Origin: Ensifer adhaerens
GTDB taxonomy: Bacteria > Pseudomonadota > Alphaproteobacteria > Rhizobiales > Rhizobiaceae
Assembly: GCA_900215285.1 (NCBI GenBank)
Contig: OCMG01000002.1
Location: 62,001 to 126,000 of the forward strand
Direction: 5' to 3'
DNA: 64,000 nucleotides
The notes under the pieces were generated by a model. That model did not search any database and was not told the origin of the DNA. It saw only the letters and a program-made list of their open reading frames with translations. Below are positions 7,886 to 53,719 of this stretch, one piece after another. Position numbers and translations under genes: made by a program. Each line of letters opens with the position of its first letter. Position 1 is the first letter of the stretch.

Positions 7886-7913
7886 CGCCGTGGTCAGGGA
7901 TCGCGGCGTTTTT
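7886..7913 (+). terminator. Rho-independent terminator after the FAH-family gene
   Basis: CGCCG (7886-7890) pairs with CGGCG (7904-7908) and is followed by five Ts. It separates the plus-strand sugar cluster from the convergent repC gene, whose stop codon begins at the end of the T-run. Confidence 0.6.
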
Positions 7914-9226
7914 CATGCGCGTTTTACCCCTGTTTCGCCATTTGCCCGCATTTGCGCCATCAGCATCGGGCCGAGCGAGAATTCGCCCCTTTCAGCTCTT
8001 CGCGTCAGATCACGCAGATAACCGCCAGCGGAATTGATGTGTCCGGCGCGCTCGAGAATGCAAGCGATCGCCGTCGCCGCATTTTCCGGTCCCATCACGC
8101 TACAGGCTTCTTCAAAAGCGCTTGGTGAGACTCCAAGCATGGATCTCACAACGACCGCCGCACTCAGGAATTCCCGCCAGCTGGTAATTGCTCCACCGTG
8201 TCCGTAATTTGTGATTTCCGGGCAGGCCGACAATACCATCCCGAGCGGGAAGGGTTTCAAGCGCACCTCTCCATGCACGTCATCCCCCTGGTAGCTGGCA
8301 GGATAGGATCGACCTTCTACCCCGGGCTTCACTGGCGTTTCCCTTCTGCCGGTCGTCAGTCGGTCATGATTGGCTGGGGTGTGATTTCGCCCCTGCTTCT
8401 TTTCGAAGCTAGGTTCAAGTTCATTTAAGGTTTGTGTATTTGAATTCTGTTTGTGCCGCTCAGATTGATCGTGATTGCCGCTACTTTTATGGGAATTGCT
8501 TCGTTGGACCATGGCCTTGGCAAGGTTTTCACGCATCGCCTCGAGAACGATCAGCAGTGCGTCCAGTTCCGACGCCTCCGGGTTTCTGGGAAGCTTGGCC
8601 ATGAGGTCTCGATAGAGTTCGCGGAATCTGAGGATTTCCTGATCCTCCTCCAGCTCGACATCTTCAGACGCCGCCTGAAAGAGCTTCACGATATCGCGCC
8701 GGCAGATCGTCATCCGCTCGCGAAGCCCCTGGTAATGAAGGCGCTCGGCGACCACGGCCGAGGCGAGGCTTTCCAGTTCCGAGGCGCGTTGCAGGAGAGG
8801 GGCCAGCGAAAAGCCGAAGGCCTGGTCGATATCGCCAGCGCTGTCACGACGAGCAAACCGCTTCCCGTTGGCGCTATCCCTGCGGATCAGCAATCCAGCT
8901 TCGACCAGCGCAGCGATATGTCGGCGGATTGTTGCCTCCGCCATCCCATGAGCCCTTAAAGACAACTGGGCATTCGAAGGAAAAACGATCAGGCTGTCGG
9001 CTCCGGAGAGTTCCGACTTGGGATAGAAGCTAAGCAAGGCATTCAGCAGCGACAGCGCCCGGTCCGAGACTCCGAGCTTGAGGCGTGCCTCGCAAAGCCA
9101 GCGATAAAGTTTCCATTTGTCGACGTTGGCATTCTCATCGATGGCCCGGGCTGCAAGCTGATCTGCGAGCATCCCATAGGTCACCGGCCGCCGCCCAAAG
9201 GGCGTCGTTACGTTTCCCGTGTGCAT
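7913..9226 (-). CDS. repC: RepC replication initiator of a repABC-type replicon
   Basis: A 437-aa RepC. The N-terminal segment has TTPFGRRPVTYGMLADQ, followed by DKWKLYRWLCEARLKLGVSDRALSLL split across a helical DNA-binding region, FYPKSELS, and VFPSNAQLSLRAHGMAEATIRRHIAAL. RepC binds an origin inside its own coding sequence and is limiting for replication. The ATG at 9226 is chosen because GGAAAGGTGA precedes it; an earlier in-frame start at 9325 would lie in the regulatory leader. The gene is full length and shows no break. It follows repB and a countertranscript gene, but no repA is upstream. Confidence 0.9.
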   Translation of the reverse strand: MHTGNVTTPFGRRPVTYGMLADQLAARAIDENANVDKWKLYRWLCEARLKLGVSDRALSLLNALLSFYPKSELSGADSLIVFPSNAQLSLRAHGMAEATIRRHIAALVEAGLLIRRDSANGKRFARRDSAGDIDQAFGFSLAPLLQRASELESLASAVVAERLHYQGLRERMTICRRDIVKLFQAASEDVELEEDQEILRFRELYRDLMAKLPRNPEASELDALLIVLEAMRENLAKAMVQRSNSHKSSGNHDQSERHKQNSNTQTLNELEPSFEKKQGRNHTPANHDRLTTGRRETPVKPGVEGRSYPASYQGDDVHGEVRLKPFPLGMVLSACPEITNYGHGGAITSWREFLSAAVVVRSMLGVSPSAFEEACSVMGPENAATAIACILERAGHINSAGGYLRDLTRRAERGEFSLGPMLMAQMRANGETGVKRA

Positions 9227-9428
9227 CTCTTCACCTTTCCACAAGGCAAAAGAAACCACCCGCCACGAATGGCGCCAAAACTCTTGACTGTGATTCGGGG
9301 AAATGCGATTCTCAAGCTGCGACACTTAGAGAGAGGCTTCCACGACGGCGACGTTCTGGGAGCTTTTCTTTTACCGGATTGATATCCTTTCGGCATTTAA
9401 ACTTTGGCCCGGAACGCGGGCCGTATTA
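9227..9428 (-). promoter_or_regulatory. repB-repC intergenic leader
   Basis: This 200-base spacer is the usual site of copy control and incompatibility in repABC operons. It holds the countertranscript gene on the opposite strand and, next to the repB stop, a strong hairpin GGCCCG-GAACG-CGGGCC (9406-9422). In known systems the leader mRNA folds to expose or hide the repC ribosome site depending on antisense RNA binding. Confidence 0.6.
9320..9371 (+). ncRNA. Countertranscript RNA (ctRNA) controlling repC
   Basis: On the plus strand, antisense to the repC leader, a TTGACT box (9285-9290) is followed 16-17 bases later by GATTCT/ATTCTC. About 50 bases on there is a hairpin of roughly 12 pairs with one mismatch and a GCGA loop (9336-9363), ending in TTTTCTTTT. 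Promoter, length (about 52 bases), orientation and terminator all fit the small antisense RNAs of repABC plasmids, which lower RepC expression and cause incompatibility. The exact 5' end is an estimate. Confidence 0.65.
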
Positions 9429-44842: not shown

Positions 44843-45703
44843 TCACATCATGGGCTTGCCGCCCGTCGCGGCAATCGTGGCGCCCGAGACATAGCTCGCC
44901 TCGTCGCTCGCGAGCATCACGTAGATCGGCGCGATTTCGCATGGCTGCCCTGGTCTCCCCATCGGCGTGTTCTCCCCGAAATGCCTGACCGTTTCGACGG
45001 GCATTGTCGACGGGATCAAGGGTGTCCAGACAGGCCCGGGTGCTACGCAGTTCACCCGAATGTTCTGCTTGCCGAGCAACTGGGCGAGACCAGCGGTGAA
45101 ATTCTGCACCGCGCCCTTTGTCGTTGCATAGGCCAGCAAGGTGGGTTTGGGATTATCTGAATTGATCGAGGCCGTGTTGATGACCGCGCCGCCATCGCCC
45201 AGATGCGGCAAAGCGGCTTTGGTGAGGTAGAACATCGATGAAATATTCGTGGCGAGGGTAAGATCCCACTCCGCGTCAGAAATGTCTTCGAGTGACTCAA
45301 ACGTCATCTGATGCGCCGCGTTGTTTACAAGAACGTCCAGCCCGCCGAATGCCTTTGTCACCTGATCAATCAACTGCCGGCAATTGTCGGCCCGGGATAC
45401 ATCAATGCGAATGGCCGCGCATTTGCGCCCTTCGGCCTCAATGAGCTTCCTGGTGCTTTCGGCGTCATCGTCTTCATTGAGATAGCAGATGGCGACGTCT
45501 GCCCCCTCACGCGCAAAGGCAATGGCAACCGCGCGGCCAATGCCGGAATCCCCGCCGGTGATCAGCGCGCGTTTTCCCCTCAGGCGACCGGAACCCACAT
45601 AGCTCTCTTCGCCGTGATCCGGCACAGGCTCCATCGCCCGGGTCTTGCCGGGAACGGCTTGCTGCTGGTCTGGAAACGGCGGTCGGGGAAAATGGTTGTT
45701 CAT
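44843..45703 (-). CDS. SDR oxidoreductase of the glucose/ribitol dehydrogenase-like (YghA) type
   Basis: A 286-aa SDR with a 45-residue N-terminal extension (PFPDQQQAVPGKTRAMEPVP) typical of the stress-linked YghA/YhdG group. It has the nucleotide motif TGGDSGIGRA, NNAA and the catalytic YATTKGA. Such genes are common members of general-stress regulons. The ATG at 45703 has GAAGGAG upstream. A GGAAC-N17-GTT promoter ends 31 bases before the start. Confidence 0.8.
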   Translation of the reverse strand: MNNHFPRPPFPDQQQAVPGKTRAMEPVPDHGEESYVGSGRLRGKRALITGGDSGIGRAVAIAFAREGADVAICYLNEDDDAESTRKLIEAEGRKCAAIRIDVSRADNCRQLIDQVTKAFGGLDVLVNNAAHQMTFESLEDISDAEWDLTLATNISSMFYLTKAALPHLGDGGAVINTASINSDNPKPTLLAYATTKGAVQNFTAGLAQLLGKQNIRVNCVAPGPVWTPLIPSTMPVETVRHFGENTPMGRPGQPCEIAPIYVMLASDEASYVSGATIAATGGKPMM

Positions 45704-45733
45704 AACAATACTCCTTCGTTGTAACCGCCCCGA

Positions 45734-45758
45734 AACCGGCTCCCGGTGGAATTGTTCC
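45734..45758 (-). promoter_or_regulatory. EcfG-type promoter for the SDR gene
   Basis: On the minus strand GGAAC (45758-45754) and GTT (45736-45734) are 17 bases apart, 31 bases from the SDR start codon. Confidence 0.65.
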
Positions 45759-45839
45759 CTTCCTCGCCGGCCTCCTCCAGATGCAAGTGAGCCCGCACAG
45801 GGCGGGCTCAAAAGGACGTTGCCGACGTTATGACAGCAG

Positions 45840-46172
45840 TCAAACCGGCAGGGCCTCGACCGATCCCGCCGGCGAATTGCGGCGCACCAGAACAGCGGGC
45901 GCTGATTTGCGGGCGCGGTTCGCGAAGAGGAGCGTTCCGGCCTCAAGTGCCGCGGCCATGAACGCCTCGCGCGCCTTCTCAGACTTGCCGAGTTCGTGGC
46001 AGGCCAGTTTGCACTCCTGGATGGCGGTCAAGTGATGTTTACCCCCACTAAGAGGCCAATCGCCGCGCAACAGCGCAAGCGCCTGCATCGGCCCCTCCAC
46101 GACAGTTGCCTCTTCTTCTACCAGACCCCCGATGTGAATGGGAGCAATCCATTTGATATCGAATGTGAGCAT
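45840..46172 (-). CDS. DUF982 protein
   Basis: A 110-aa protein with the DUF982 pattern (ALALLRGDWPLSGGKHHLTA followed by IQECKLACHELGKSEKAREAF). This family is almost limited to Rhizobiales and its function is unknown. GGAGG precedes the ATG and an EcfG-type promoter ends 23 bases upstream, placing it in the stress regulon of this island. Confidence 0.8.
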   Translation of the reverse strand: MLTFDIKWIAPIHIGGLVEEEATVVEGPMQALALLRGDWPLSGGKHHLTAIQECKLACHELGKSEKAREAFMAAALEAGTLLFANRARKSAPAVLVRRNSPAGSVEALPV

Positions 46173-46194
46173 GTGCGCTACCTCCAGCTCATCA

Positions 46195-46219
46195 AACTCT
46201 ACAGCCGCCCAAAGGTTCC
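46195..46219 (-). promoter_or_regulatory. EcfG-type promoter for the DUF982 gene
   Basis: GGAAC (46219-46215), 17-base spacer, GTT (46197-46195). It is 23 bases from the start codon, which leaves a leader of about 16 bases. Confidence 0.65.
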
Positions 46220-46228
46220 TCCTGTTCT

Positions 46229-46558
46229 TTACCGACCATCGCCGACCAGAAGAGGCAGAATCACGCGGGGATCGAGCGAACCGCCGAGCACCGCGCGGGG
46301 CCCCTCCGGCGGAAACTGCCCGCTGATATCTTCTATCACCGTGTAGAGCTTTTCATTGCGAAACGCCGAGGCGCTCGCCGTCGAGACCCCCTCACCCGGC
46401 TTTGCGCGCTCTTGTGGAAAATCGGCCTCGGCGGCACTGGCGACTATCCGAGCATCGCCGCTGGTCTTTGCCCGTACGATAACTTCGCCCTGAAAGGGCG
46501 ACAAATCCCAATTGGGATCCTCGGGGCCAGCAACGGGAACGAGCCTGTAGATGTGCAT
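46229..46558 (-). CDS. Hypothetical stress-island protein
   Basis: A 109-aa protein starting MHIYRLVPVAGPEDPNWD, with SPFQGEVIVRAKTSGDAR and a C-terminal LDPRVILPLLVGDG. I do not recognise the family. The ATG at 46558 is chosen because GAGGAG lies ten bases upstream; a GTG at 46567 would overlap that site. It is divergent from the 46728 gene, each with its own EcfG-type promoter. Confidence 0.65.
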   Translation of the reverse strand: MHIYRLVPVAGPEDPNWDLSPFQGEVIVRAKTSGDARIVASAAEADFPQERAKPGEGVSTASASAFRNEKLYTVIEDISGQFPPEGPRAVLGGSLDPRVILPLLVGDGR

Positions 46559-46600
46559 GGACGGCACTCCTCTTCATCGACCGGATAGGATGTCTTCACC

Positions 46601-46625
46601 AACCTGCCAGAGATCGTGTTGTTCC
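46601..46625 (-). promoter_or_regulatory. EcfG-type promoter for the 109-aa gene
   Basis: GGAAC (46625-46621), 17-base spacer, GTT (46603-46601), 43 bases from the start codon. It is back to back with the plus-strand promoter at 46641-46665. Confidence 0.65.
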
Positions 46626-46640
46626 CTCCGCGTCAGGCAT

Positions 46641-46665
46641 GGAACCGTTGCCCCGCAAGAACGTT
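46641..46665 (+). promoter_or_regulatory. EcfG-type promoter, exact consensus
   Basis: GGAAC (46641-46645), 16-base spacer, CGTT (46662-46665): a perfect match to the consensus, 63 bases before the 46728 start codon. Confidence 0.75.
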
Positions 46666-46727
46666 CAGAAACCAGCGTCCATCGATGGGCCCCGTCCATC
46701 AAAACCTCATTCAAGGAGGAATATGCC

Positions 46728-47096
46728 ATGAGCAACAATGCCAAGATTGCGACAAGCAGGCTCGCCGATCCGGGAGACAACTGGCACGGACCGATCGTGG
46801 AGATCACGACAGATGATCACATGACACTGGTGGTCAATTTGCCGCTTTCTGCAGCTGATGCCGATAGAGATCCCATTGACCGGGCACTTGGCGCTCTATC
46901 AGAACTGGCGCCTGCCGCTCGAGCCGCACGCGCAAATCTCGGGGGCCAGCCATCAGCAAGCGCGCGTAGCGCCCAAGACAAAGACGAACTGGACGCCCAG
47001 CTCGACAAGGGGCTCGAAGATTCGTTTCCGGCAAGCGACCCGGTTTCGACCGTCACCACGACCGTCCTTCCAAAACGTGCGAACTCGGATCGTTAG
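46728..47096 (+). CDS. Small hypothetical stress-island protein
   Basis: A 122-aa acidic protein. The C-terminal motif LDKGLEDSFPASDPVSTV is a pattern seen in many short rhizobial proteins of unknown function. The ATG at 46728 has GGAGGAA upstream; an out-of-frame ATG five bases earlier and a longer frame from 46551 are rejected. It has an exact EcfG-type promoter and a terminator downstream, so it is a single-gene transcript. Confidence 0.75.
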   Translation: MSNNAKIATSRLADPGDNWHGPIVEITTDDHMTLVVNLPLSAADADRDPIDRALGALSELAPAARAARANLGGQPSASARSAQDKDELDAQLDKGLEDSFPASDPVSTVTTTVLPKRANSDR

Positions 47097-47143
47097 TGTC
47101 CAGCCTCAGGCACTTAACACGACAAAGCAGACAGGAAAATGAG

Positions 47144-47171
47144 CCCGGTGGAGACATTCCGCCGGGTTTTT
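47144..47171 (+). terminator. Rho-independent terminator
   Basis: CCCGGTGGA (47144-47152) pairs with TTCCGCCGGG (47158-47167; one G-U pair), followed by TTTTT. It ends the 46728 transcript. Confidence 0.65.
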
Positions 47172-47195
47172 CTATCACTGCACAGTGGAGTCCGA

Positions 47196-47411
47196 TCAGG
47201 ACCGCGAGCATCCTGCGTCATTGGCTTGCCGAGTATCAAGCAGTTCCTGCAACTTCAGGGCCAGCACATCGATCTCGCTGGAAGCTTTCGCCTCACCCAT
47301 TTCCTCCACCAGCTGGTTTATCAGGGAGACGATCTCTGCAGCATCGGCGCGATCGGCATCTCCGTTCGGAGTCTGAGTCATGTTCACCTCGCGCACAAGT
47401 TCCGGGCTCAT
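47196..47411 (-). CDS. Small helical hypothetical protein
   Basis: A 71-aa acidic protein (ADAAEIVSLINQLVEEMGEA, then KASSEIDVLALKLQELLDTR) predicted to be largely helical, possibly a coiled coil. A weak GAGG site lies eight bases before the ATG. No EcfG-type promoter was found upstream. No family recognised; it may not be real. Confidence 0.5.
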   Translation of the reverse strand: MSPELVREVNMTQTPNGDADRADAAEIVSLINQLVEEMGEAKASSEIDVLALKLQELLDTRQANDAGCSRS

Positions 47412-47588
47412 AGACTAACCTCGTTTCCTACGTGAGGTTCGTCAACACGGATCACTCGATGAAAAACTTTTAGTCGCGCGATTTTAGACCTAGCTAATTT
47501 TAGGGAGGCAACGCGATGGAACAATGCCCTTCGGACAAACATTAACGGAACGCATTCGAATTTCATCGTCATGACAGGAGGAGGACAC
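47412..47588. other. Spacer with a near-consensus EcfG-type promoter
   Basis: GGAAC (47547-47551) is followed 16 bases later by GTC (47568-47570), one base off the CGTT/GTT element, just upstream of a 35-codon frame with a very strong ribosome site. It is the best candidate promoter for that small frame and perhaps for the sigma gene after it, but it is weaker than the ten sites listed. Confidence 0.3.
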
Positions 47589-47696
47589 ATGTGGATGTGT
47601 GAGCTGGAGCCTGAGCTCAGAGCTGCCTTGCCTGAACAGCTTCGGCAGGCGCAGCAGCCACATATACCGCCGTATATCCCTGCCCTTCCAGCCTGA
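47589..47696 (+). CDS. Possible 35-aa small protein upstream of the sigma factor
   Basis: The frame starts at an ATG eight bases after AGGAGGAGG, about the strongest ribosome site in the window, and reads MWMCELEPELRAALPEQLRQ, then AQQPHIPPYIPALPA. The N-terminal half is an acidic amphipathic helix and the tail is proline-rich. No family recognised. It lies 83 bases before the ECF sigma gene in the same direction, so it could be a leader peptide, a small stress protein or a sigma-factor partner. Confidence 0.45.
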   Translation: MWMCELEPELRAALPEQLRQAQQPHIPPYIPALPA

Positions 47697-47779
47697 TCGG
47701 CAGATGCAGGTTGTGATGCAAACGGTTGGCACTGGTCGTTCTTGTCAACATCCGATCAATCCCAAGCGTGGAAATAGAC

Positions 47780-48262
47780 ATGAGTCGTGAACAAGTTGTG
47801 GAGCTGATCCCCGCGCTCAGAGCGTTCGCGAGAATTCTCTGCCCTCAGCCGGAAAATGCGGATGACCTCGTTCAGGAAACCCTGATCAAGGCGATCGCAA
47901 ACATCAATCAATATACCGAGGGCACACGCCTGAAATCGTGGCTCTTCACCATCATGCGAAACACGTTCAACACGCGCTACCGCAAGCGGGAGCGCGAGGT
48001 GATCGGCCTGCCCCCCGACAGCGTCAATACTCTCGTCACCGCACCGGATCAGGAATGGTCGGCCCGCGCAAAGGAGGTCTATGCCGCGCTGATGAGACTT
48101 CCGGACCAATATCGTGAAATTCTGGTGCTCATCGTCATCCAGGGTGAGAGCTATGAGGATGCTGCCGTGATTTGCGACTGCGCCGTTGGCACGGTCAAGA
48201 GCCGGCTTAACCGGGCTCGTCAAAGGCTCAAGGAAGAAATGGGCGAAATCGTCGAAGATTGA
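47780..48262 (+). CDS. ECF sigma factor, probably EcfG-like (general stress)
   Basis: A 160-aa ECF sigma factor. Region 2 shows ENADDLVQETLIKAIANI and LKSWLFTIMRNTFNTRYRKR; region 4 shows MRLPDQYREILVLIVIQGES, then AAVICDCAVGTVKSRLNRAR. The LKSWLFTIMRNTF pattern resembles the EcfG group that reads GGAAC-N16/17-CGTT promoters in Alphaproteobacteria, and ten such promoters surround this gene. The usual partners NepR (anti-sigma) and PhyR are not in the window; they may be chromosomal. The ATG at 47780 is chosen over a longer frame from 47726. Confidence 0.85.
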   Translation: MSREQVVELIPALRAFARILCPQPENADDLVQETLIKAIANINQYTEGTRLKSWLFTIMRNTFNTRYRKREREVIGLPPDSVNTLVTAPDQEWSARAKEVYAALMRLPDQYREILVLIVIQGESYEDAAVICDCAVGTVKSRLNRARQRLKEEMGEIVED

Positions 48263-48281
48263 CGGAGGCGCTTGGATCTTC

Positions 48282-48306
48282 GGAACCTTGTGCGGCCGCT
48301 CATGTT
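48282..48306 (+). promoter_or_regulatory. EcfG-type promoter for the DUF4142 gene
   Basis: GGAAC (48282-48286), 17-base spacer, GTT (48304-48306), 28 bases from the start codon. It begins only 20 bases after the sigma-factor stop. Confidence 0.65.
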
Positions 48307-48333
48307 GGGAGGAGGCAGAAAGGAGACCATTCC

Positions 48334-48948
48334 ATGAAACCTCTCGTCCTCGCATGCGCAGTCCTTTTGGCTGCCGGCCCCGTTCTTGCCCAATCAAGCG
48401 CTTCCCCCCAGACCGATGCAAACCCCAAAGCCGGCGCCCCCGCCACTAGCGCAGGCACCCAGTCCACCGACGTACCCAACACAGCAAACCCGGCCCATGC
48501 CGGGCAGCCCGCTTCTGTGGTTACCACAAAGGATTTCGTCACCAAGGCCGCCCAGTCGGACATGTATGAAATCCAGTCGAGCAAATTCATTGTAAAAAGC
48601 GACATAAAGAACGATGCGACGAAAAAGTTCGCGCAACGTATGATCGACGACCACACCAAAACCTCTAACGAACTGAAGCAAATGCTCCAGTCCGAGAAGA
48701 TGGAGCAAAACCTGCCCTCTTCCATGTCGAAATCTCAGCAGAAGATGCTGAATTCGCTCAAAGGCATGAAGGGGGAAGCGCTTGCGACCCACTACCGAAA
48801 GGAGCAGGTCACCGCCCATCAAAAGGCCGTCGATCTCTTTGGAGCCTATTCCAACACTGGCGACAACCCAGAACTCAAGAAATGGGCTGCGGACACCCTG
48901 CCTGCGCTGAAGGAGCACCTGAAAATGGCGCAGCAACTGAAAAAGTAG
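48334..48948 (+). CDS. Secreted DUF4142 protein
   Basis: A 204-aa protein. A signal peptide at residues 1-19 (cleavage after VLAQ) leads to a low-complexity Ala/Pro/Thr linker, then a helical DUF4142 domain at about 65-200 (FVTKAAQSDMYEIQSSKF, MIDDHTKTSNELKQML). DUF4142 proteins are periplasmic, ferritin-like in predicted fold and often stress-induced; the function is unknown. The ATG at 48334 has AAGGAG upstream. It is followed by a strong terminator. Confidence 0.85.
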   Translation: MKPLVLACAVLLAAGPVLAQSSASPQTDANPKAGAPATSAGTQSTDVPNTANPAHAGQPASVVTTKDFVTKAAQSDMYEIQSSKFIVKSDIKNDATKKFAQRMIDDHTKTSNELKQMLQSEKMEQNLPSSMSKSQQKMLNSLKGMKGEALATHYRKEQVTAHQKAVDLFGAYSNTGDNPELKKWAADTLPALKEHLKMAQQLKK

Positions 48949-48981
48949 GCTGCGGATTTTCGACTCCTTCACCTCCTCTCC

Positions 48982-49015
48982 AACCGCGGCGCCCCATGAG
49001 GCCGCCGCGGTTTTT
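48982..49015 (+). terminator. Rho-independent terminator after the DUF4142 gene
   Basis: AACCGCGGCG (48982-48991) pairs perfectly with CGCCGCGGTT (49003-49012), followed by a T-run. Confidence 0.75.
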
Positions 49016-49031
49016 CTAAGGAAGCGAGAGT

Positions 49032-49253
49032 ATGCCCCACTTCACACCCAGAGATCCTCTTCTGGCGGTAGAACCAGGCCAGCCACAGCCTGTCCCGCCC
49101 CCGATGACGCCGCCACCGCCCATTGACGAACCCGAACCCGACCGACTGCCGGGTGACGCTCCGGTTCCGAACCCGGACGAGAACGACAGACCGGCCAAGA
49201 CAATGGCCCCTGTTCACGGCGACTGGAAACCGGCGGGCCTCTATTCGCTTTGA
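49032..49253 (+). CDS. Small proline-rich hypothetical protein
   Basis: A 73-aa protein rich in Pro, Asp and Glu (QPQPVPPPMTPPPPIDEPEP), probably unstructured. A GGAAGCGAG site precedes the ATG. It overlaps the end of the convergent 49241-49549 gene by 13 bases. No family recognised and the composition makes homology hard to judge. No EcfG-type promoter was seen directly upstream. Confidence 0.5.
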   Translation: MPHFTPRDPLLAVEPGQPQPVPPPMTPPPPIDEPEPDRLPGDAPVPNPDENDRPAKTMAPVHGDWKPAGLYSL

Positions 49254-49549
49254 CCCTGATCACGCTCTCGCTCCTCGACGAGGCGAAGTGCGGTGCGGGC
49301 CTCCTGTAGAAGCGGTTCAAGGTCCTGCCCTCGGGAACTTGCGTCCATGCGGGCTTCAATTTCTCCAATCAATTCCTGAAGCCGACGCCTGCGGTCTCCA
49401 AAGGGCTCCCCGGAGATGGCAATGGCGTTGATTTCACCCGAATTGATGTCCAGCGCGACACTCGTCACATCGTCTTCGGAGCCGACAGGAGCATTGATGA
49501 CGTCCGGCTTCTCGTTTTTCCGGACTGGATCTCGGGCTGTGTCTCGCAT
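49241..49549 (-). CDS. Small hypothetical protein, helical C-terminus
   Basis: A 102-aa protein: an acidic N-terminal half and a C-terminal coiled-coil-like helix (RRRRLQELIGEIEARMDASS, LEPLLQEARTALRLVEERER). The ATG at 49549 is chosen for the AAGGAG site seven bases upstream. A variant EcfG-type promoter (GGAAAC, 17 bases, CGTT; 49614-49588) lies upstream. No family recognised. Confidence 0.6.
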   Translation of the reverse strand: MRDTARDPVRKNEKPDVINAPVGSEDDVTSVALDINSGEINAIAISGEPFGDRRRRLQELIGEIEARMDASSRGQDLEPLLQEARTALRLVEERERDQGQSE

Positions 49550-49637
49550 GACGTTCTCCTTCATGAATTGAGGTGACATGTCAGACGAACGCGCAGGCAG
49601 GCGGGATTGTTTCCGAAGAGACCGTTTTGGACGATGT

Positions 49638-49662
49638 GGAACAAGGTCATGCGTCACGAGTT
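49638..49662 (+). promoter_or_regulatory. EcfG-type promoter for the glycine-zipper lipoprotein
   Basis: GGAAC (49638-49642), 17-base spacer, GTT (49660-49662), 43 bases before the start codon. Confidence 0.65.
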
Positions 49663-49704
49663 AGCCCTCTGTAACCTCATTCTAGGAAAGACTTGGAGAC
49701 GGTC

Positions 49705-49983
49705 ATGAAATACCTGCTCGTTATTCTTCCACTCATGGCGTTGGCCTCGTGCACAGCCACAGAGCGCGGCGCGACCATCGGCGGCGCCTCCGGTGCCATC
49801 ATCGGCGGCGCCGTCACAGGCGATGTCGGTGGTGCTGCCGTTGGGGGTGCGGTTGGCGCAGTCGCCGGCGCCCTGATCGGCTCCGCCAGCGAGCCGGGTC
49901 GCTGCTATTACCGGGATCGCTACGGTCGCCGCGTCGTTGATGATTGCCCCTCCGACTACCGCTGGCACGGCCGGCGGTATTGA
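49705..49983 (+). CDS. Glycine-zipper lipoprotein
   Basis: A 92-aa lipoprotein. A signal peptide ends with the lipobox LASC near residue 16. A glycine-zipper segment of repeated GxxxG (GGASGAIIGGAVTGDVGGAA, then VGGAVGAVAGALIG) follows, and the tail is basic and Tyr-rich (CYYRDRYGRRVVDDC). It resembles envelope-stress proteins of the OsmB/17-kDa antigen kind. The ATG at 49705 has TTGGAG upstream; a start four codons earlier is less likely. Confidence 0.75.
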   Translation: MKYLLVILPLMALASCTATERGATIGGASGAIIGGAVTGDVGGAAVGGAVGAVAGALIGSASEPGRCYYRDRYGRRVVDDCPSDYRWHGRRY

Positions 49984-50073
49984 CCGAACGGCCTGATAGG
50001 GCCGTCGCTTGGATGGGAGACCGACCAAGTCGGTCTCCGCCCGATAAAGAAGAAACCTGAAAGGAGAAAACCC
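49984..50073 (+). other. Intergenic hairpins between lipoprotein and BON genes
   Basis: Two inverted repeats follow the lipoprotein stop: ACGGCC/GGCCGT (about 49988-50004), and a perfect 10-bp GGAGACCGAC/GTCGGTCTCC with a CAA loop (50016-50038). No T-run follows, so they are more likely RNA-stability or processing elements than terminators. Confidence 0.4.
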
Positions 50074-50691
50074 ATGGCTAGTGGTGACTACGGACGTTAC
50101 GACCGCGAGATGATGAATGACCGCAACCGAAGCTATCGTCGACCCAACCGCGACGACTGGACAACAGACGATCTCGGCTATGGCGAAGAAGGCTACCGCT
50201 ATGGTCGCGGTAGCGCGCCCAACGGCGCTTATCCTTACGGTCTGTACTCCGCCTACATGCCCTTCGGCACGGACGAGCGCCATCGATCCTCCCGCGACTA
50301 TGATCGCTTCCATGGGGATGATCGCCGGCGTGGCGAGCGTGATATGTGGGACCGTGCCGGCGACGAAATTGCCTCCTGGTTCGGTGATGAGGATGCCGAG
50401 CGCCGCCGCGAAATGGACGCGCGCCGGGACGAAAGTCTCCGCGGCCGCGGCCCCAAAGGCTATCTTCGCTCAGACAGCCGCATCAACGAGGACGTTCATG
50501 ATCGTCTGACCGACCATCCGCGCCTTGATGCCAGCGATGTGACCGTCACTGTCCAGGACGGTGAGGTTACGTTGAACGGCTTCGTCAGACGACGTGGAGA
50601 CAAGCGCGTGGCCGAGGATTGCGCCGAGACCGTGACAGGGGTCAAGAACGTGCAGAACAATCTGCGCGTGAAGGATCAGGATCAGGTTTGA
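50074..50691 (+). CDS. BON-domain protein with Arg/Asp/Tyr-rich N-terminus
   Basis: A 205-aa protein. Residues 1-125 are low-complexity and highly charged (many Arg, Asp, Tyr). A BON domain follows at about 130-200 (INEDVHDRLTDHPRLDASDV, TVTVQDGEVTLNGFVRRRGD). BON domains bind membranes or phospholipids and occur in osmotic-stress proteins such as OsmY. No signal peptide is visible, so it is probably cytoplasmic. AAAGGAG precedes the ATG. One of three BON proteins in this island. Confidence 0.8.
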   Translation: MASGDYGRYDREMMNDRNRSYRRPNRDDWTTDDLGYGEEGYRYGRGSAPNGAYPYGLYSAYMPFGTDERHRSSRDYDRFHGDDRRRGERDMWDRAGDEIASWFGDEDAERRREMDARRDESLRGRGPKGYLRSDSRINEDVHDRLTDHPRLDASDVTVTVQDGEVTLNGFVRRRGDKRVAEDCAETVTGVKNVQNNLRVKDQDQV

Positions 50692-50718
50692 TGCAGTCCC
50701 GCCCATCGGCGGCTCTCC

Positions 50719-50741
50719 GTGGCGGGGCTCTGCCCCGCCAC
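50719..50741. other. Hairpin after the BON gene
   Basis: GTGGCGGGG and CCCCGCCAC form a perfect 9-bp stem with a 5-base loop, 28 bases after the stop codon. No T-run follows on either strand. It may stabilise the 3' end or act with Rho. Confidence 0.4.
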
Positions 50742-50857
50742 TGTCAGGAGCGTTTCAAAGTCTGCAACAGGCGATGAAGCGCTCTTTCCGTTTTCACCTA
50801 TGCACTTCCGGGGGCGAGGAAGCTCGGCCTGGCCGGAACGAAGCCGGAGGAAAATCC

Positions 50858-51037
50858 ATGCCCGCAAAGTCCAAGGCCCAGCAGAAGGCTGCAGGTGCAG
50901 CGCTATCCGCAAAACGTGGTGACATGAAAAAAGGCGACCTGAAGGGCGCCTCGCGCAGCATGGAACGGTCGATGTCGGAAAAGGAACTGGAAGAGCTTGC
51001 GTCGACGAAGCGCAAGGGCAAGCCGGAACACAAGTAG
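50858..51037 (+). CDS. Small basic DUF3008-like protein
   Basis: A 59-aa Lys/Ala/Ser-rich protein (MPAKSKAQQKAAGAALSAKR ... MSEKELEELASTKRKGKPEH) matching the pattern of the DUF3008 family of short, DNA-associated-looking proteins. The ATG at 50858 has CGGAGG upstream. Function unknown; the composition suggests nucleic-acid binding or desiccation protection. Confidence 0.75.
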   Translation: MPAKSKAQQKAAGAALSAKRGDMKKGDLKGASRSMERSMSEKELEELASTKRKGKPEHK

Positions 51038-51085
51038 AGCGACAGCCGAAACACTAAATGCCTATGACATCAAGGAGTAACAGCA

Positions 51086-51379
51086 ATGGTACATAAGCCG
51101 AGAAGAAATCACGATACGCTGGCCGAGGTTGAGGTTCTTCACCCGGTGCAGGCTGGCCGGGAGACGCTAGTCGCCAATCTTCTGGCGACAGCAGGCTCAG
51201 TGGACGCCTCTGCGGTGACGGTGACCGCCGAAGGCGGACGGATCCATCTGTCGGGCTACGTGCAAAGCCCCGAGGAAGTCACAAGATGTTCCGAAATCGC
51301 GCTGTCTCTCAATGGCGTGGCCGAAGTCGACAACCAGATCGCCTACCGCCGCGATGGAGAGCTCCCCCGTCAAGCCTAA
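51086..51379 (+). CDS. Single BON-domain protein
   Basis: A 97-aa protein consisting mainly of one BON domain (TVTAEGGRIHLSGYVQSPEE, then SLNGVAEVDNQIAY). No signal peptide. AAGGAG lies eight bases upstream of the ATG. It follows the DUF3008-like gene by 48 bases on the same strand, probably in one transcript. Confidence 0.7.
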   Translation: MVHKPRRNHDTLAEVEVLHPVQAGRETLVANLLATAGSVDASAVTVTAEGGRIHLSGYVQSPEEVTRCSEIALSLNGVAEVDNQIAYRRDGELPRQA

Positions 51380-51397
51380 TCGCAGAGCGGCTCCTCT

Positions 51398-51589
51398 TCA
51401 GGGTTGCGCCGAGGTCGTGGGCCGTTGCTCGCTATTTAGCGGGCGCTCGGGGTAGGAGCCCGTGAAAACATAGAGATACAGCAAGGCCAGAACGCCGAAA
51501 GCAAGACAAAAGGAGACGATCAACACGATCAGCATTCGCGGCGAGTTCCGCCCCTGCCGTGCCTCTTCAGGTGGGATTTCCTTGACCAT
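51398..51589 (-). CDS. Small single-pass membrane protein
   Basis: A 63-aa protein with one transmembrane helix at about residues 19-42 (LIVLIVSFCLAFGVLALLYL) and a Pro/Arg-rich tail. No family recognised. An EcfG-type promoter ends 35 bases upstream of the ATG, which supports it being real and stress-induced. Confidence 0.7.
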   Translation of the reverse strand: MVKEIPPEEARQGRNSPRMLIVLIVSFCLAFGVLALLYLYVFTGSYPERPLNSEQRPTTSAQP

Positions 51590-51623
51590 ATCGCTCTCGC
51601 TTTTTCTCGTTCATCTCAAGCGA

Positions 51624-51648
51624 AACAACCTGCAAACGGGGTTGTTCC
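51624..51648 (-). promoter_or_regulatory. EcfG-type promoter for the 63-aa membrane protein
   Basis: GGAAC (51648-51644), 17-base spacer, GTT (51626-51624), 35 bases from the start codon. Confidence 0.65.
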
Positions 51649-51732
51649 GCTGGGGGCCAATGACGGTGCGGCCCGAGCAGGTGAATCGGACCGATCGCCA
51701 GATCATTTTCCGCGTTTCGTCGAAACCGTGAA

Positions 51733-51803
51733 TCGATCTAACTTCCTGTTTTCATGCCGTGCTCGGCGCAAAGCCGGTTTCCGCCTTCGCCGGAACTTCT
51801 CTA
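51733..51803. repeat. Rhizobial dispersed intergenic repeat, copy B
   Basis: This segment (CGATCTAACTTCCTGTTTTC ... GGCGCAAAGCCGGTTTCCGC ... CGCCGGAACTTCTCTA) aligns along its length with copy A at 40797-40870, with roughly two thirds of bases the same by eye. Its right end supplies the stop codon of the 27-codon membrane peptide frame. Confidence 0.5.
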
Positions 51804-51884
51804 GAAGGGGAAGAACATCCAGATCAAAATAATGAAAGCGATCAGGACGACCACAGAAAACTCGGTCCGATGCCCCCGAGGCAT
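51801..51884 (-). CDS. Possible 27-aa membrane peptide
   Basis: An ATG at 51884, with GAGAGGAC upstream, opens a 27-codon frame: a short basic N-terminus (MPRGHRTEF) and one hydrophobic helix (SVVVLIAFIILIWMFFPF). The pattern is that of small stress-induced membrane peptides. The region around it, 51590-52028, otherwise contains only the promoter and repeat listed. No EcfG-type promoter was found for it. Confidence 0.4.
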   Translation of the reverse strand: MPRGHRTEFSVVVLIAFIILIWMFFPF

Positions 51885-52028
51885 CTCTTTGTCCTCTCAG
51901 GCATAGGATGCGGCCGGGGTCTATCAGTTTCGCGCCGCTCTGAGGCCTCGCTCAGGACCTCTCTTCTTTGCGCTCTTGGAACCGTCCCTGCCCTAACGAA
52001 CGGGAAACAGTGGACCGGGCTCGGGCGC

Positions 52029-52526
52029 TCAGACGTCCGCGTCAGGCGGTATGTGGCTGTCGACACCGATCATGACCAGCTTGTTCACGCAGGAGCGAAT
52101 GCCTTTGACAGCCAAGGTCAGTGTCTCCGCGAGTGCATGTGCGTGGGCAGTCTCCACCTTGCCCGAAAGGGTGGCGACGCCATGATGAACCGTCACCGTC
52201 ATCAAGGCCGGGTCGAAATTGTCATTATCGCCAAGAACGTCCATGATCCGTTCTTCCAGAACATCGTCGTTGATCGCATCCTCTTCGAAAACCGGAGAAA
52301 GCGAAGGGCCGCCACGGCTGGCGATTTCGGGTCGCTCTCCGACCTCCACGCCAACACGCTCCGCCTCGTCCAGATTTGATGTGCTCGTTCCATATGGTGC
52401 GTTTTGCCTGGCCGGCACACCATCCTCGTCGGCATAAGGCCAGCCTTCGCCGATGTTGCGCTTGTCATAATCGCGATAATCTTCTTCACGGTCCGTCTCG
52501 CGCTGCGCTCTCTTTGGGTCGACCAT
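52029..52526 (-). CDS. BON-domain protein
   Basis: A 165-aa protein: a charged N-terminal part (residues 1-85, rich in Asp, Glu, Arg) and a BON domain at about 90-155 (IMDVLGDNDNFDPALMTVTV, HHGVATLSGKVETAHAHALA). No signal peptide. The ATG at 52526 has GAAGGAA upstream. It is probably expressed from the EcfG-type promoter at 52755-52779, through a leader that contains the 62-codon frame. Confidence 0.75.
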   Translation of the reverse strand: MVDPKRAQRETDREEDYRDYDKRNIGEGWPYADEDGVPARQNAPYGTSTSNLDEAERVGVEVGERPEIASRGGPSLSPVFEEDAINDDVLEERIMDVLGDNDNFDPALMTVTVHHGVATLSGKVETAHAHALAETLTLAVKGIRSCVNKLVMIGVDSHIPPDADV

Positions 52527-52557
52527 GGTTATTCCTTCTCGAAAGTTTACAAAATGA

Positions 52558-52746
52558 TCAAAGCGGACCCTGCGAACGATCGCTGCCGGCAATCGAAGCC
52601 GGCACGCGAACTTCCGCGCGTCGCGACTGCGCCAACGGAGGGAGGTTGAAGGGAGGCGCCGCATCCTTCAGAGCTGAAGCAAGCTTTTGCTTCGCGATTT
52701 CCTCCACGCGCTCAGAGGGATGGATAACTGGATTGGACTGGGTCAT
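52558..52746 (-). CDS. Possible 62-aa protein or leader frame upstream of the BON gene
   Basis: The frame reads MTQSNPVIHPSERVEEIAKQ, then KLASALKDAAPPFNLPPLAQ. The EcfG-type promoter upstream places its expected transcript start within a few bases of this ATG, so the mRNA would be leaderless if the frame is used; there is no ribosome site. It ends 31 bases before the BON gene. It may be a real small protein or just leader sequence. Confidence 0.45.
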   Translation of the reverse strand: MTQSNPVIHPSERVEEIAKQKLASALKDAAPPFNLPPLAQSRRAEVRVPASIAGSDRSQGPL

Positions 52747-52754
52747 GGGAGTGA

Positions 52755-52779
52755 AACCGTCGTCGAGACCCAAGGTTCC
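52755..52779 (-). promoter_or_regulatory. EcfG-type promoter for the 62-aa frame/BON gene
   Basis: GGAAC (52779-52775), 17-base spacer, GTT (52757-52755). The GTT is nine bases from the ATG at 52746, much closer than in the other cases. Confidence 0.6.
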
Positions 52780-52786
52780 AGCCTGA

Positions 52787-53065
52787 CTAGATTTTGTTGC
52801 CGTTCTTTGCCTTCGACCGCATCATTGCCGCATCGAAGATGGCTCTAACCTCGGCCGCGAACTCCGCCTGTTCGGCAAAGGCCGAGGTTGGGATCACGCC
52901 CGGGTCCTCCTCTTGATCATAGACCGGCAGATCATTTCCCGGCCCACCCTGTGCACCCGCCGGAACGGAACCGCGCTCCGACATCAGCAGGAATGTCAGT
53001 TCGATGAGAAGTTCGCGATGTGCGTTCACGCGCGCCCGCAACTTGATGAGTTCCGCTTCGTCCAT
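52787..53065 (-). CDS. Small hypothetical stress-island protein
   Basis: A 92-aa protein with an N-terminal helix (MDEAELIKLRARVNAHRELL, then IELTFLLMSERG) and a C-terminal helix (FAEQAEFAAEVRAIFDAAMM). No family recognised. The ATG at 53065 follows GGGAGCG. An EcfG-type promoter ends 38 bases upstream, back to back with that of the 53192 gene. Confidence 0.65.
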   Translation of the reverse strand: MDEAELIKLRARVNAHRELLIELTFLLMSERGSVPAGAQGGPGNDLPVYDQEEDPGVIPTSAFAEQAEFAAEVRAIFDAAMMRSKAKNGNKI

Positions 53066-53102
53066 GTCTCGCTCCCGTGCTTGCTGGCCGTGCAAGAGAT
53101 TG

Positions 53103-53128
53103 AACGAACATTGGGCCGCCTGTGTTCC
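53103..53128 (-). promoter_or_regulatory. EcfG-type promoter for the 92-aa gene
   Basis: GGAAC (53128-53124), 17-base spacer, CGTT (53106-53103), 38 bases from the start codon at 53065. Confidence 0.6.
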
Positions 53129-53141
53129 AGCAGCAGCACCC

Positions 53142-53166
53142 GGAACCTTTCACCGGACGTTTAGTT
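53142..53166 (+). promoter_or_regulatory. EcfG-type promoter for the 47-aa membrane protein
   Basis: GGAAC (53142-53146), 17-base spacer, GTT (53164-53166), 26 bases before the ATG at 53192. Confidence 0.65.
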
Positions 53167-53191
53167 TGGGGAAGAGATCAAGGAGAGAGAC

Positions 53192-53335
53192 ATGAAAAGC
53201 AACCGCATCGTCTGGGGCGTGATCCTCGTCATTCTCATCGTCGCGGCTATCGCCTATCTCGGAACCACCCGGAACATGAGCAGCAGCATCCAGCCGCAGT
53301 CGAATACTCAGAACGCCGAGGAGAAGAACCATTGA
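53192..53335 (+). CDS. 47-aa single-pass membrane protein
   Basis: A short gene of 47 codons starting MKSNRIVWGVILVILIVAAI, with one transmembrane helix at about residues 6-23 and a polar Ser/Gln/Asn-rich tail ending EEKNH. AAGGAGAG lies just upstream and an EcfG-type promoter is at the right distance, so it is very likely real although short. No family recognised. Confidence 0.7.
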   Translation: MKSNRIVWGVILVILIVAAIAYLGTTRNMSSSIQPQSNTQNAEEKNH

Positions 53336-53719
53336 GCAGCTCCGGGGCAATTCTGGTGGCATGGAGGCGTGGATCAGGTCCCCGTTTCGGACCCTCCCTC
53401 TAACCAAGTTACCGGCACTCTGTTCCGGTGGAAGGCGAAGCCTCCGGCCCGGGCCGCCAGATATCTTGTCGGATCAAGGCCAGCTCCTCCATTTCGCAAG
53501 CCTTGTCTTCAGCTTCGTGCGCATTTCCCTTTTGCATCAACGATCGTGTCTCGCTCTCCGACAACTTTGCCTCCAAGCACACAATGGACAGCACCGGCTT
53601 CGGATTTTGCGCCATAATCCTCACCCTTTAAGCCTCGGCCCCATGCGAACGTCTCCGGACCAGCAACTGGTCCAGAGATCAAAGACAGGCTGGCTGGGAT
53701 GGCGGCTTGAAAACCGTAT
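53336..53719 (-). CDS. Intergenic region with a possible 68-aa gene (53409-53615)
   Basis: The minus frame 53409-53615 reads MAQNPKPVLSIVCLEAKLSE, then SETRSLMQKGNAHEAEDKAC, and has AGGGTGAGG before the ATG. It is plausible but has no recognised family and no EcfG-type promoter. A GGACCAG/CTGGTCC hairpin near 53657-53673 has no T-run. Nothing else is visible in the stretch. Confidence 0.35.

Follow-up and report, generated by a model that had tools for sequence, protein, structure and literature searches.

The DNA analysed here is a stretch of 64,000 nucleotides from Ensifer adhaerens (the window; bases 62001-126000 of the 579,762-bp contig C2, in genome G000 of 5.19 Mb and 6 contigs), and our subject is a compact island of small genes around an extracytoplasmic function (ECF) sigma factor gene, ecfG2, at 47780..48262 on the + strand. 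We propose that the island could be a local regulon of this sigma factor, a non-canonical EcfG (EcfG2), since most of its promoters are a single letter away from the promoters of the main switch of the general stress response, which suggests that the spare sigma has genes of its own. Promoter sites with C as the first base of the -10 box (CGTT or CATT) are called C-type and those with DGTT (D = A, G or T) D-type; coordinates are those of the window, and promoter bases were compared at the loci of four congeners (L009-L012).

Genes, promoters and replicon of the island

The left part of the island consists of - strand genes for a short-chain dehydrogenase/reductase (SDR) family oxidoreductase (44843..45718; PF13561, with the best NCBIfam hits below their cut-offs), a DUF982 protein (45840..46172; PF06169) and a protein of 112 amino acids (aa) without Pfam family (46229..46567), homologues of which occur near other EcfG2 genes. 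By pattern match and position each has a D-type promoter, GGTT at 45734..45758, AGTT at 46195..46219 (AGTT in L012 too) and GGTT at 46601..46625 (TGTT with N17 in L012), all on the - strand. The last of these stands back to back with the C-type promoter (CGTT, 46641..46665, +; CGTT in L012) of a 122-aa acidic protein that the Pfam scan placed in no family (46728..47096, +) and whose cluster, sharing a C-terminal motif, has C in 20/20 sites. Between this gene and ecfG2 lie the gene of a 71-aa protein without family (47196..47411, -; homologue in 3/4 congener loci) and the likely ecfG2 promoter, a C-type GGAAC-N17-CATT (47518..47543, +).

Downstream of ecfG2, a D-type TGTT promoter (48282..48306, +; TGTT in L009 and L011 too) precedes a DUF4142 gene (48331..48948, +; PF13628), and a gene for a 103-aa protein, for which family scans gave nothing above cut-off, follows on the other strand (49241..49552, -). 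The D-type AGTT promoter at 49638..49662 (+; AGTT in 5/5 congeners) belongs to a glycine-zipper gene (49693..49983, +; PF13488) and perhaps to the same-strand genes behind it, which encode a 205-aa BON-domain protein (50074..50691; PF04972), a DUF3008 protein (50774..51037; PF11450) and a 97-aa BON-domain protein (51086..51379; PF04972). Two conserved peptides that look membrane-like by sequence and have no Pfam family, of 63 aa (51398..51589, -) and 47 aa (53192..53335, +), have D-type promoters at 51624..51648 (TGTT, -) and 53142..53166 (AGTT, +), both replaced by GGTT in L009-L011. A further D-type promoter (GGTT, 52755..52779, -; A, A, T and G in L009-L012) lies before the gene of a small protein, whose start we moved to an ATG downstream of the promoter on the basis of the open reading frame (ORF) list and the promoter position (52558..52746, -), and perhaps also serves the gene of a 166-aa BON-domain protein behind it (52029..52529, -; PF04972). 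The C-type promoter at 53103..53128 (CGTT with N17, -; C in 5/5 congeners), back to back with the 53142 site, precedes the gene of a 102-aa protein for which family scans found no family (52787..53095, -); its gene cluster has C in 7/7 sites, the window included, with the boxes conserved and the spacer not. One more exact match, GGAAC-N16-GGTT at 53402-53426 (-), has no gene close behind and is perhaps due to chance, perhaps the promoter of a small RNA.

Ten of these sites had been named in the original prediction, and each is found at its coordinates and on its strand; the spacer before NGTT is N16 in nine and N17 in one (53103-53128), and the ten include two divergent pairs. Their placement ahead of start codons holds for nine, which end 7-62 bases before an ORF start, while the tenth, at 52755, overlaps with the longest ORF, where a more internal ATG would suit it. 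The CGTT that had been taken for the -10 box was not borne out, as 2/10 sites have C and most -10 boxes of the island are non-C.

C2 looks like a secondary replicon because the window contains RepC, the marker of repABC replicons (8669..9190, -; PF03428, E 1.3e-67; inside the ORF 7913-9325), and none of the 44 tRNA genes lies on C2 (42/44 on C4, 1 on C3, 1 on C5); additional RepC occur on contigs C1 and C3. The view of an EcfG-like sigma amid a compact EcfG-type regulon is supported, and RepC and the 0/44 tRNA genes support its location on such a replicon. NepR and PhyR, thought to be missing, are absent from the window, but the genome search finds both 210-216 kb from the island on the same repABC contig: the single NepR match of the genome lies on C2 at 325730, 216 kb away, EcfG1 adjoins nepR, and PhyR and an HWE kinase are at most 7 kb off by Pfam. 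In contrast to the statement of Jans et al. that genes of the EcfG1 subgroup are in every case found on the chromosome (PMC3892343, excerpt), this core general stress locus (NepR, PhyR, EcfG1; L005, C2 ~318-327 kb) lies on a repABC contig that has no tRNA genes; nepR of the congener G002 is on a 2.59-Mb contig.

The nepR gene and the gene of the island sigma lie on one contig in three congeners, 180-183 kb apart, and are on different contigs in the fourth, a draft; the fifth, G002, is without this sigma. A different member of the EcfG2 clade, with 49% identity, is present in G002 (L174, C9 296-314 kb) and has a site cluster of its own, in which 12 of the 13 sites are non-C. From the sigma to ~53335 the gene order is kept, with some genes missing, in 4/5 congeners, and a scan of 20 proteins encoded between 42.6 and 54.5 kb found no mobile-element domain, other ORFs being outside the scan. 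Mobility, which the original prediction had assumed, found no support, and the features of a mobile genomic island were not seen here.

Two classes of promoter

Nine GGAAC-N16-NGTT sites occur in 7,633 bp of the island against 0.27 expected (Poisson P = 1.7e-11; ~1e-8 when corrected for the number of windows), which confirms a density beyond chance; the whole genome has 184 such sites, 111 DGTT and 73 CGTT. In the window, GGAAC-N16/17-GTT gives 13 matches against 3.0 expected, and 0/100 shuffles reach 13, while GGAAC-N16/17-CGTT gives 3 against 1.1, and 11/100 shuffles reach 3, an absence of clear excess that follows from the presence of C in 2/10 sites. The enrichment that a genome-wide scan had been expected to reveal is strong for the NGTT form in the island and not clear for the CGTT form in the window. 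Against its backwards form, GGAAC-N16/17-CGTT did not look commoner in the own genome (111 matches against 117); the backwards pattern turned out to be a poor control, and other spacings were used in its place.

An artefact of DNA rich in GGAAC and GTT would agree with the missing excess of the narrow CGTT pattern, but it is extremely improbable in view of the Poisson value, of boxes that are conserved while their spacers diverge, and of a peak at N16/17 that stands out from other spacings in several genomes, so that the spacing controls exclude chance. The EcfG2 loci of other rhizobia (L013-L088) hold 623 sites where ~73 are expected from other spacings, with a sharp N16/N17 peak. On plasmid p42f of Rhizobium etli, the 35 kb around EcfG2 (40-75 kb) hold 14 N16 sites, 2 of them C, with 0-2 at each of the neighbouring spacings, and several directly precede annotated genes, e.g., for DUF4142 and ferritin-like proteins.

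When the promoters of orthologous island genes were tabulated for the window and the four congeners, 33 of 50 exact matches had an assigned gene, in ten families. Two families, those of the 102-aa gene (52787) and the 122-aa gene (46728), are always C (7 sites), and eight are never C (26 sites), with A, G and T interchanging in four of the latter (46229, 51398, 52558, 53192). The -35 box GGAAC at 16-17 nucleotides from the -10 box, typical of ECF15/EcfG targets, is what the island has, and the island sigma probably uses it; the CGTT typical of their -10 boxes is not what these eight of the ten families carry. At the NepR locus of five genomes of the genus, seven recurring promoters, six assigned by gene and the seventh, divergent from nepR, by position, are CGTT in 35/35 cases. 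Of the remaining eight matches there, five are reciprocal GGTT reads of a single site and three (2 GGTT, 1 CGTT) have no gene. The class counts cover NGTT; sites with NATT are less numerous, and at EcfG2 loci most of them are CATT.

The same separation by gene can be followed beyond the genus in 38 gene clusters with 307 sites, thinned to <90% identity and drawn from 80 EcfG2 loci together with the window, p42f and pSymB. Having C in the first -10 position is a stable trait of the gene, with an intraclass correlation of 0.49 against 0.12 for A, 0.28 for G and 0.24 for T (bootstrap 0.011), and several genes that encode neither a sigma factor nor PhyR are always C (20/20, 10/10, 8/8). These figures speak against a single pool of promoters, in which both EcfGs would read all sites, the first -10 base would tune their strength, strong CGTT would be kept at regulators and weaker sites at other genes, and ecfG2 would merely amplify; we consider such a pool a serious but lesser possibility.

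The contrast recurs in nine other genomes, where C is found in 13/47 sites at EcfG2 loci and in 45/52 at NepR loci (Fisher 3e-9). All eight genomes with sites at both loci agree in direction, G013 having none at its short EcfG2 locus; the nine include the congener G002 with its different EcfG2 sigma, and six of the nine NepR loci overlap the set fetched earlier. Counts of GGAAC-N16-DGTT and GGAAC-N16-CGTT in 61 genomes against the control spacings N19-23 gave DGTT ratios of 1.42 in 14 genomes with EcfG2, 1.12 in 27 with NepR and without EcfG2, and 1.10 in 20 without NepR match, and CGTT ratios of 1.65, 1.34 and 1.10 in the same groups. For DGTT, genomes with EcfG2 differ from those with EcfG1 only (p = 0.001), and the latter do not differ from those with neither (p = 0.87). 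The effect of EcfG2 presence persists after allowing for the CGTT excess (p = 0.007, permutation 0.002), also without the window's genus (p = 0.011) and within the family (p = 0.0007). These statistics handle phylogeny by dropping the genus alone; EcfG2 status was read off the tree where loci had been fetched and was otherwise judged by bit score and adjacency to NepR. The DGTT excess tracks the presence of EcfG2 and not that of EcfG1, contrary to what a common pool would lead one to expect.

The sigma factor and its own promoter

The product of the 47780 gene matches only the Sigma70_r2 and Sigma70_r4 families (Sigma70_r4_2; no sigma3), has a PhyR_sigma2 hit and is 43% identical to the EcfG1 of the same genome. 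When 133 distinct ECF proteins are placed in a tree rooted on a distant ECF, it falls in an orphan EcfG clade with R. etli EcfG2 (PF00052) and Sinorhizobium meliloti RpoE5, where the clade that includes R. etli EcfG2 has a support of 0.84 and the next deeper node one of 0.56; this clade has zero NepR-linked members and lies apart from the NepR-linked EcfG. A long-branch ECF of the same genome (L003) is also inside it and was left out of the comparison of residues between clades. As an orphan gene of this clade on a secondary replicon, the island sigma is a non-canonical EcfG2 of the R. etli type; it is not a canonical EcfG1, as nepR and phyR are not beside it and the sole NepR is 216 kb away.

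The 420 bp upstream of ecfG2 genes were searched for GGAAC-N16/17 followed by NGTT or NATT, for which ~0.03 matches are expected per locus. Sites are present in 76/82 loci (42 CGTT, 32 CATT, 2 AGTT; 6 none), which makes 74/82 C-type; many of the 82 loci are close relatives, and the thinned NGTT-kind set has 15 C and 2 A. The genus of the window has GGAAC-N16/17-CATT in 5/5 cases. Between this promoter and ecfG2 (47578-47696), a GAGGAG and an ATG (47595) do not vary among five congeners, and the ATG opens a short ORF that begins with M-x-E-L in 4/5 congeners and may encode a leader peptide. The ~70 bases before the ecfG2 start (47719-47790) are far better conserved in the five congeners than the remaining leader.

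Whether the sigma is plugged into the chromosomal stress circuit or ungated had been left open in the original prediction. An ungated parallel system, with EcfG2 free of NepR and EcfG1 and answering an input of its own, e.g., guanosine tetraphosphate (ppGpp), has been proposed in part for R. etli, where ecfG2 is partly EcfG1-independent and ppGpp-dependent (PMC3892343, PMC3188799, excerpts) and is among the six loci without a C-type site, and it would suit the result that tblastn near 80 EcfG2 loci found no NepR and weak PhyR hits in two. We regard it as improbable here, given the C-type promoter on 74/82 ecfG2 genes, the window's included in the genus-wide CATT, and given the NepR-like ORF reported near S. 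meliloti rpoE5 (PMC6180224) and a second NepR 17 kb from ecfG2 in genome G014. Because of the C-type promoters at these loci and in the window's genus, which are of the sort that the NepR/PhyR locus has, a plugged-in sigma is favoured, with the difference that the stress circuit is on C2 here and not on the chromosome.

Which sigma would read which promoter

We incline, by a little more than an even chance, to an asymmetric one-base code combined with the order EcfG1, ecfG2, island genes. PhyR would free EcfG1 from NepR, and EcfG1, canonical and NepR-gated, would require C at the first -10 base (CGTT or CATT) and would transcribe ecfG2 from its C-type promoter. EcfG2 would also read GGAAC-N16-DGTT, so that D-type promoters would be mainly its own, and from them it would transcribe the BON, glycine-zipper, DUF4142, DUF982, SDR and small-peptide genes, while the two island genes that retain C-type promoters would be open to EcfG1. 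The sequences themselves show two promoter classes, their constancy from gene to gene, where they are placed, the C-type promoter on ecfG2 and the clade of the sigma, while we infer which sigma reads which class; the proposed order follows from the C-type promoter on ecfG2 together with the RpoE2-dependence of S. meliloti rpoE5. A bolder form, in which DGTT promoters are private to EcfG2, the hierarchy runs one way, changes in region 2.4 (e.g., Ser67->Thr) set the code and DGTT is the missing EcfG2 motif, falls somewhat short of an even chance in our estimation.

The closest known system is R. etli EcfG2, likewise a plasmid-borne orphan sigma of the EcfG2 clade without NepR/PhyR beside it and with dense GGAAC-N16-DGTT sites, several of which precede stress-type genes (DUF4142, ferritin-like); it differs in that its ecfG2 has no exact C-type promoter and that EcfG1 is chromosomal there and on the same secondary replicon here. 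According to excerpts from Jans et al. 2013 (PMC3892343), R. etli EcfG1 targets have GGAAC-N16-CGTT, no motif was found for EcfG2, and 1/19 EcfG2-dependent units match the CGTT motif. The same source mentions reports on two other species in which NepR makes no contact with EcfG2. It also states that in E. coli the ecfG1 promoter answers EcfG1 only and the ecfG2 promoter EcfG2 only, which is hard to reconcile with a common pool, and that EcfG1 gives no direct stimulation of ecfG2 there.

S. meliloti RpoE5 is alike in belonging to the EcfG2 clade and in the CATT-type promoter on its gene (GGAAC-N16-CATT), activated by the canonical EcfG RpoE2 (PMC6180224; PMC3616915), and differs in its single overexpression target, in 7 N16 sites in 18 kb and in the NepR-like ORF nearby. 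The pairs SigT/SigU of Caulobacter and EcfG1/EcfG2 of Sphingopyxis resemble the proposed arrangement as a main and an accessory EcfG in series, with the difference that the paralogues share targets there (as told in PMC3892343, PMC7083833, PMC8103513); the Caulobacter and Sphingomonas pairs are outside the R. etli EcfG2 subgroup, per Jans et al. (PMC3892343).

Several observations weigh against the asymmetric code and the cascade. Among the 50 island matches, 17 are outside the family count, namely 4 reciprocal reads and 13 sites without assigned gene (3 C, 10 D), and the EcfG2 loci L013-L088 mix the classes, with 228/623 sites C. A DGTT excess is present in the EcfG1-only genomes G040 and G055 and missing from the EcfG2-carrying G022 and G053. 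R. etli ecfG2 has no exact site upstream, as one of six such loci among 82, nor has R. etli katG, which is reported to be EcfG2-dependent. Excerpts from PMC3892343 state that ecfG2 expression is halved in the R. etli ecfG1 mutant, that EcfG2 induces its own promoter and that in E. coli it drives the phyR promoter and ReC64, which has the CGTT motif, and both R. etli sigmas have been assigned one common ggAAC-N16-cgTT motif (PMC4167512, excerpt). Overexpression of S. meliloti RpoE5 raised a single gene, 1.7-fold (PMC6180224, excerpt), both Sphingopyxis EcfGs read CGTT, TGTT, CATT and GGTT in vitro (PMC7083833), the motif of Sphingomonas melonis leaves the first -10 base open, and the consensus of Methylobacterium extorquens is C/GGTT. 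Four points would suit a single pool of promoters, in that the several -10 boxes are read by both Sphingopyxis sigmas with the consensus CGTT strongest, phyR and ReC64 are also read by R. etli EcfG2, the RpoE5 regulon is nearly nil, and the part of the sigma that reads the -35 box is alike in both clades. The published R. etli data on phyR and ReC64 (PMC3892343, excerpt) rule out that EcfG2 cannot read C, and it is because of them that the code proposed here is worded as asymmetric.

The alignment of EcfG1 with EcfG2 proteins, alike in that -35 reading region, differs in region 2. Position 52 is N (97%) in EcfG1 against R/K/S in EcfG2, position 55 A against S, 61 L against M, 64 E (78%) against T (89%) and 68 Q against R/K, and at position 67 of region 2.4, 83% of the 36 EcfG1 proteins have S and 95% of the 91 EcfG2 proteins have T. 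Aligned to SigH, with the numbering matched by our own counting, positions 52 and 67 correspond to N77 and N92, which in an excerpt on the SigH complex contact the flipped T-9 and the -11 pair, respectively (PMC6411747); the -11 pair adjoins the first -10 base at issue. At NepR-linked loci, sigmas with S67 go with 119/148 NGTT sites C (30 loci) and those with T67 with 7/23 (6 loci), where the independent lineages are few and two of the T67 loci (L162, L170) are mostly C-type. Glu64->Thr as sole cause of the change was discarded, as a few EcfG1 without Glu64 are still amid mostly C-type sites; position 67 agrees better with the promoter class. EcfG1 proteins also share a conserved DYGPD-like stretch at the C-terminus, which is missing from the EcfG2 rows; these rows are cut to the tblastn match, and their tails may be truncated.

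A subclade of canonical EcfG1 with T67 (L149, L166, L168, L169) counts against the proposed division as well, since its NepR loci have 15 NGTT sites and none of these is CGTT: the nepR-strand sites are AGTT, AGTT and GGTT in three and absent in the fourth, and three have a CATT site. This subclade rules out the strict rule that D-type means EcfG2, and because of it we allow that the code may move with the sigma.

As far as our searches show, the island is of the known non-canonical EcfG2 kind, real and conserved, and its promoter class had not been assigned to EcfG2 before; no report of a DGTT motif for EcfG2 was found in the open-licence literature by title or abstract opening, and an excerpt of a review describes the promoter pattern of non-canonical EcfG as yet to be determined (PMC8103513). 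Our proposal offers a one-base difference in the -10 box as such a pattern, with candidate sigma residues named, and predicts a one-way hierarchy, by which the question of the EcfG2 motif becomes testable. If true, it would mean that a duplicated sigma factor has gained a regulon of its own while the -35 box stayed the same.

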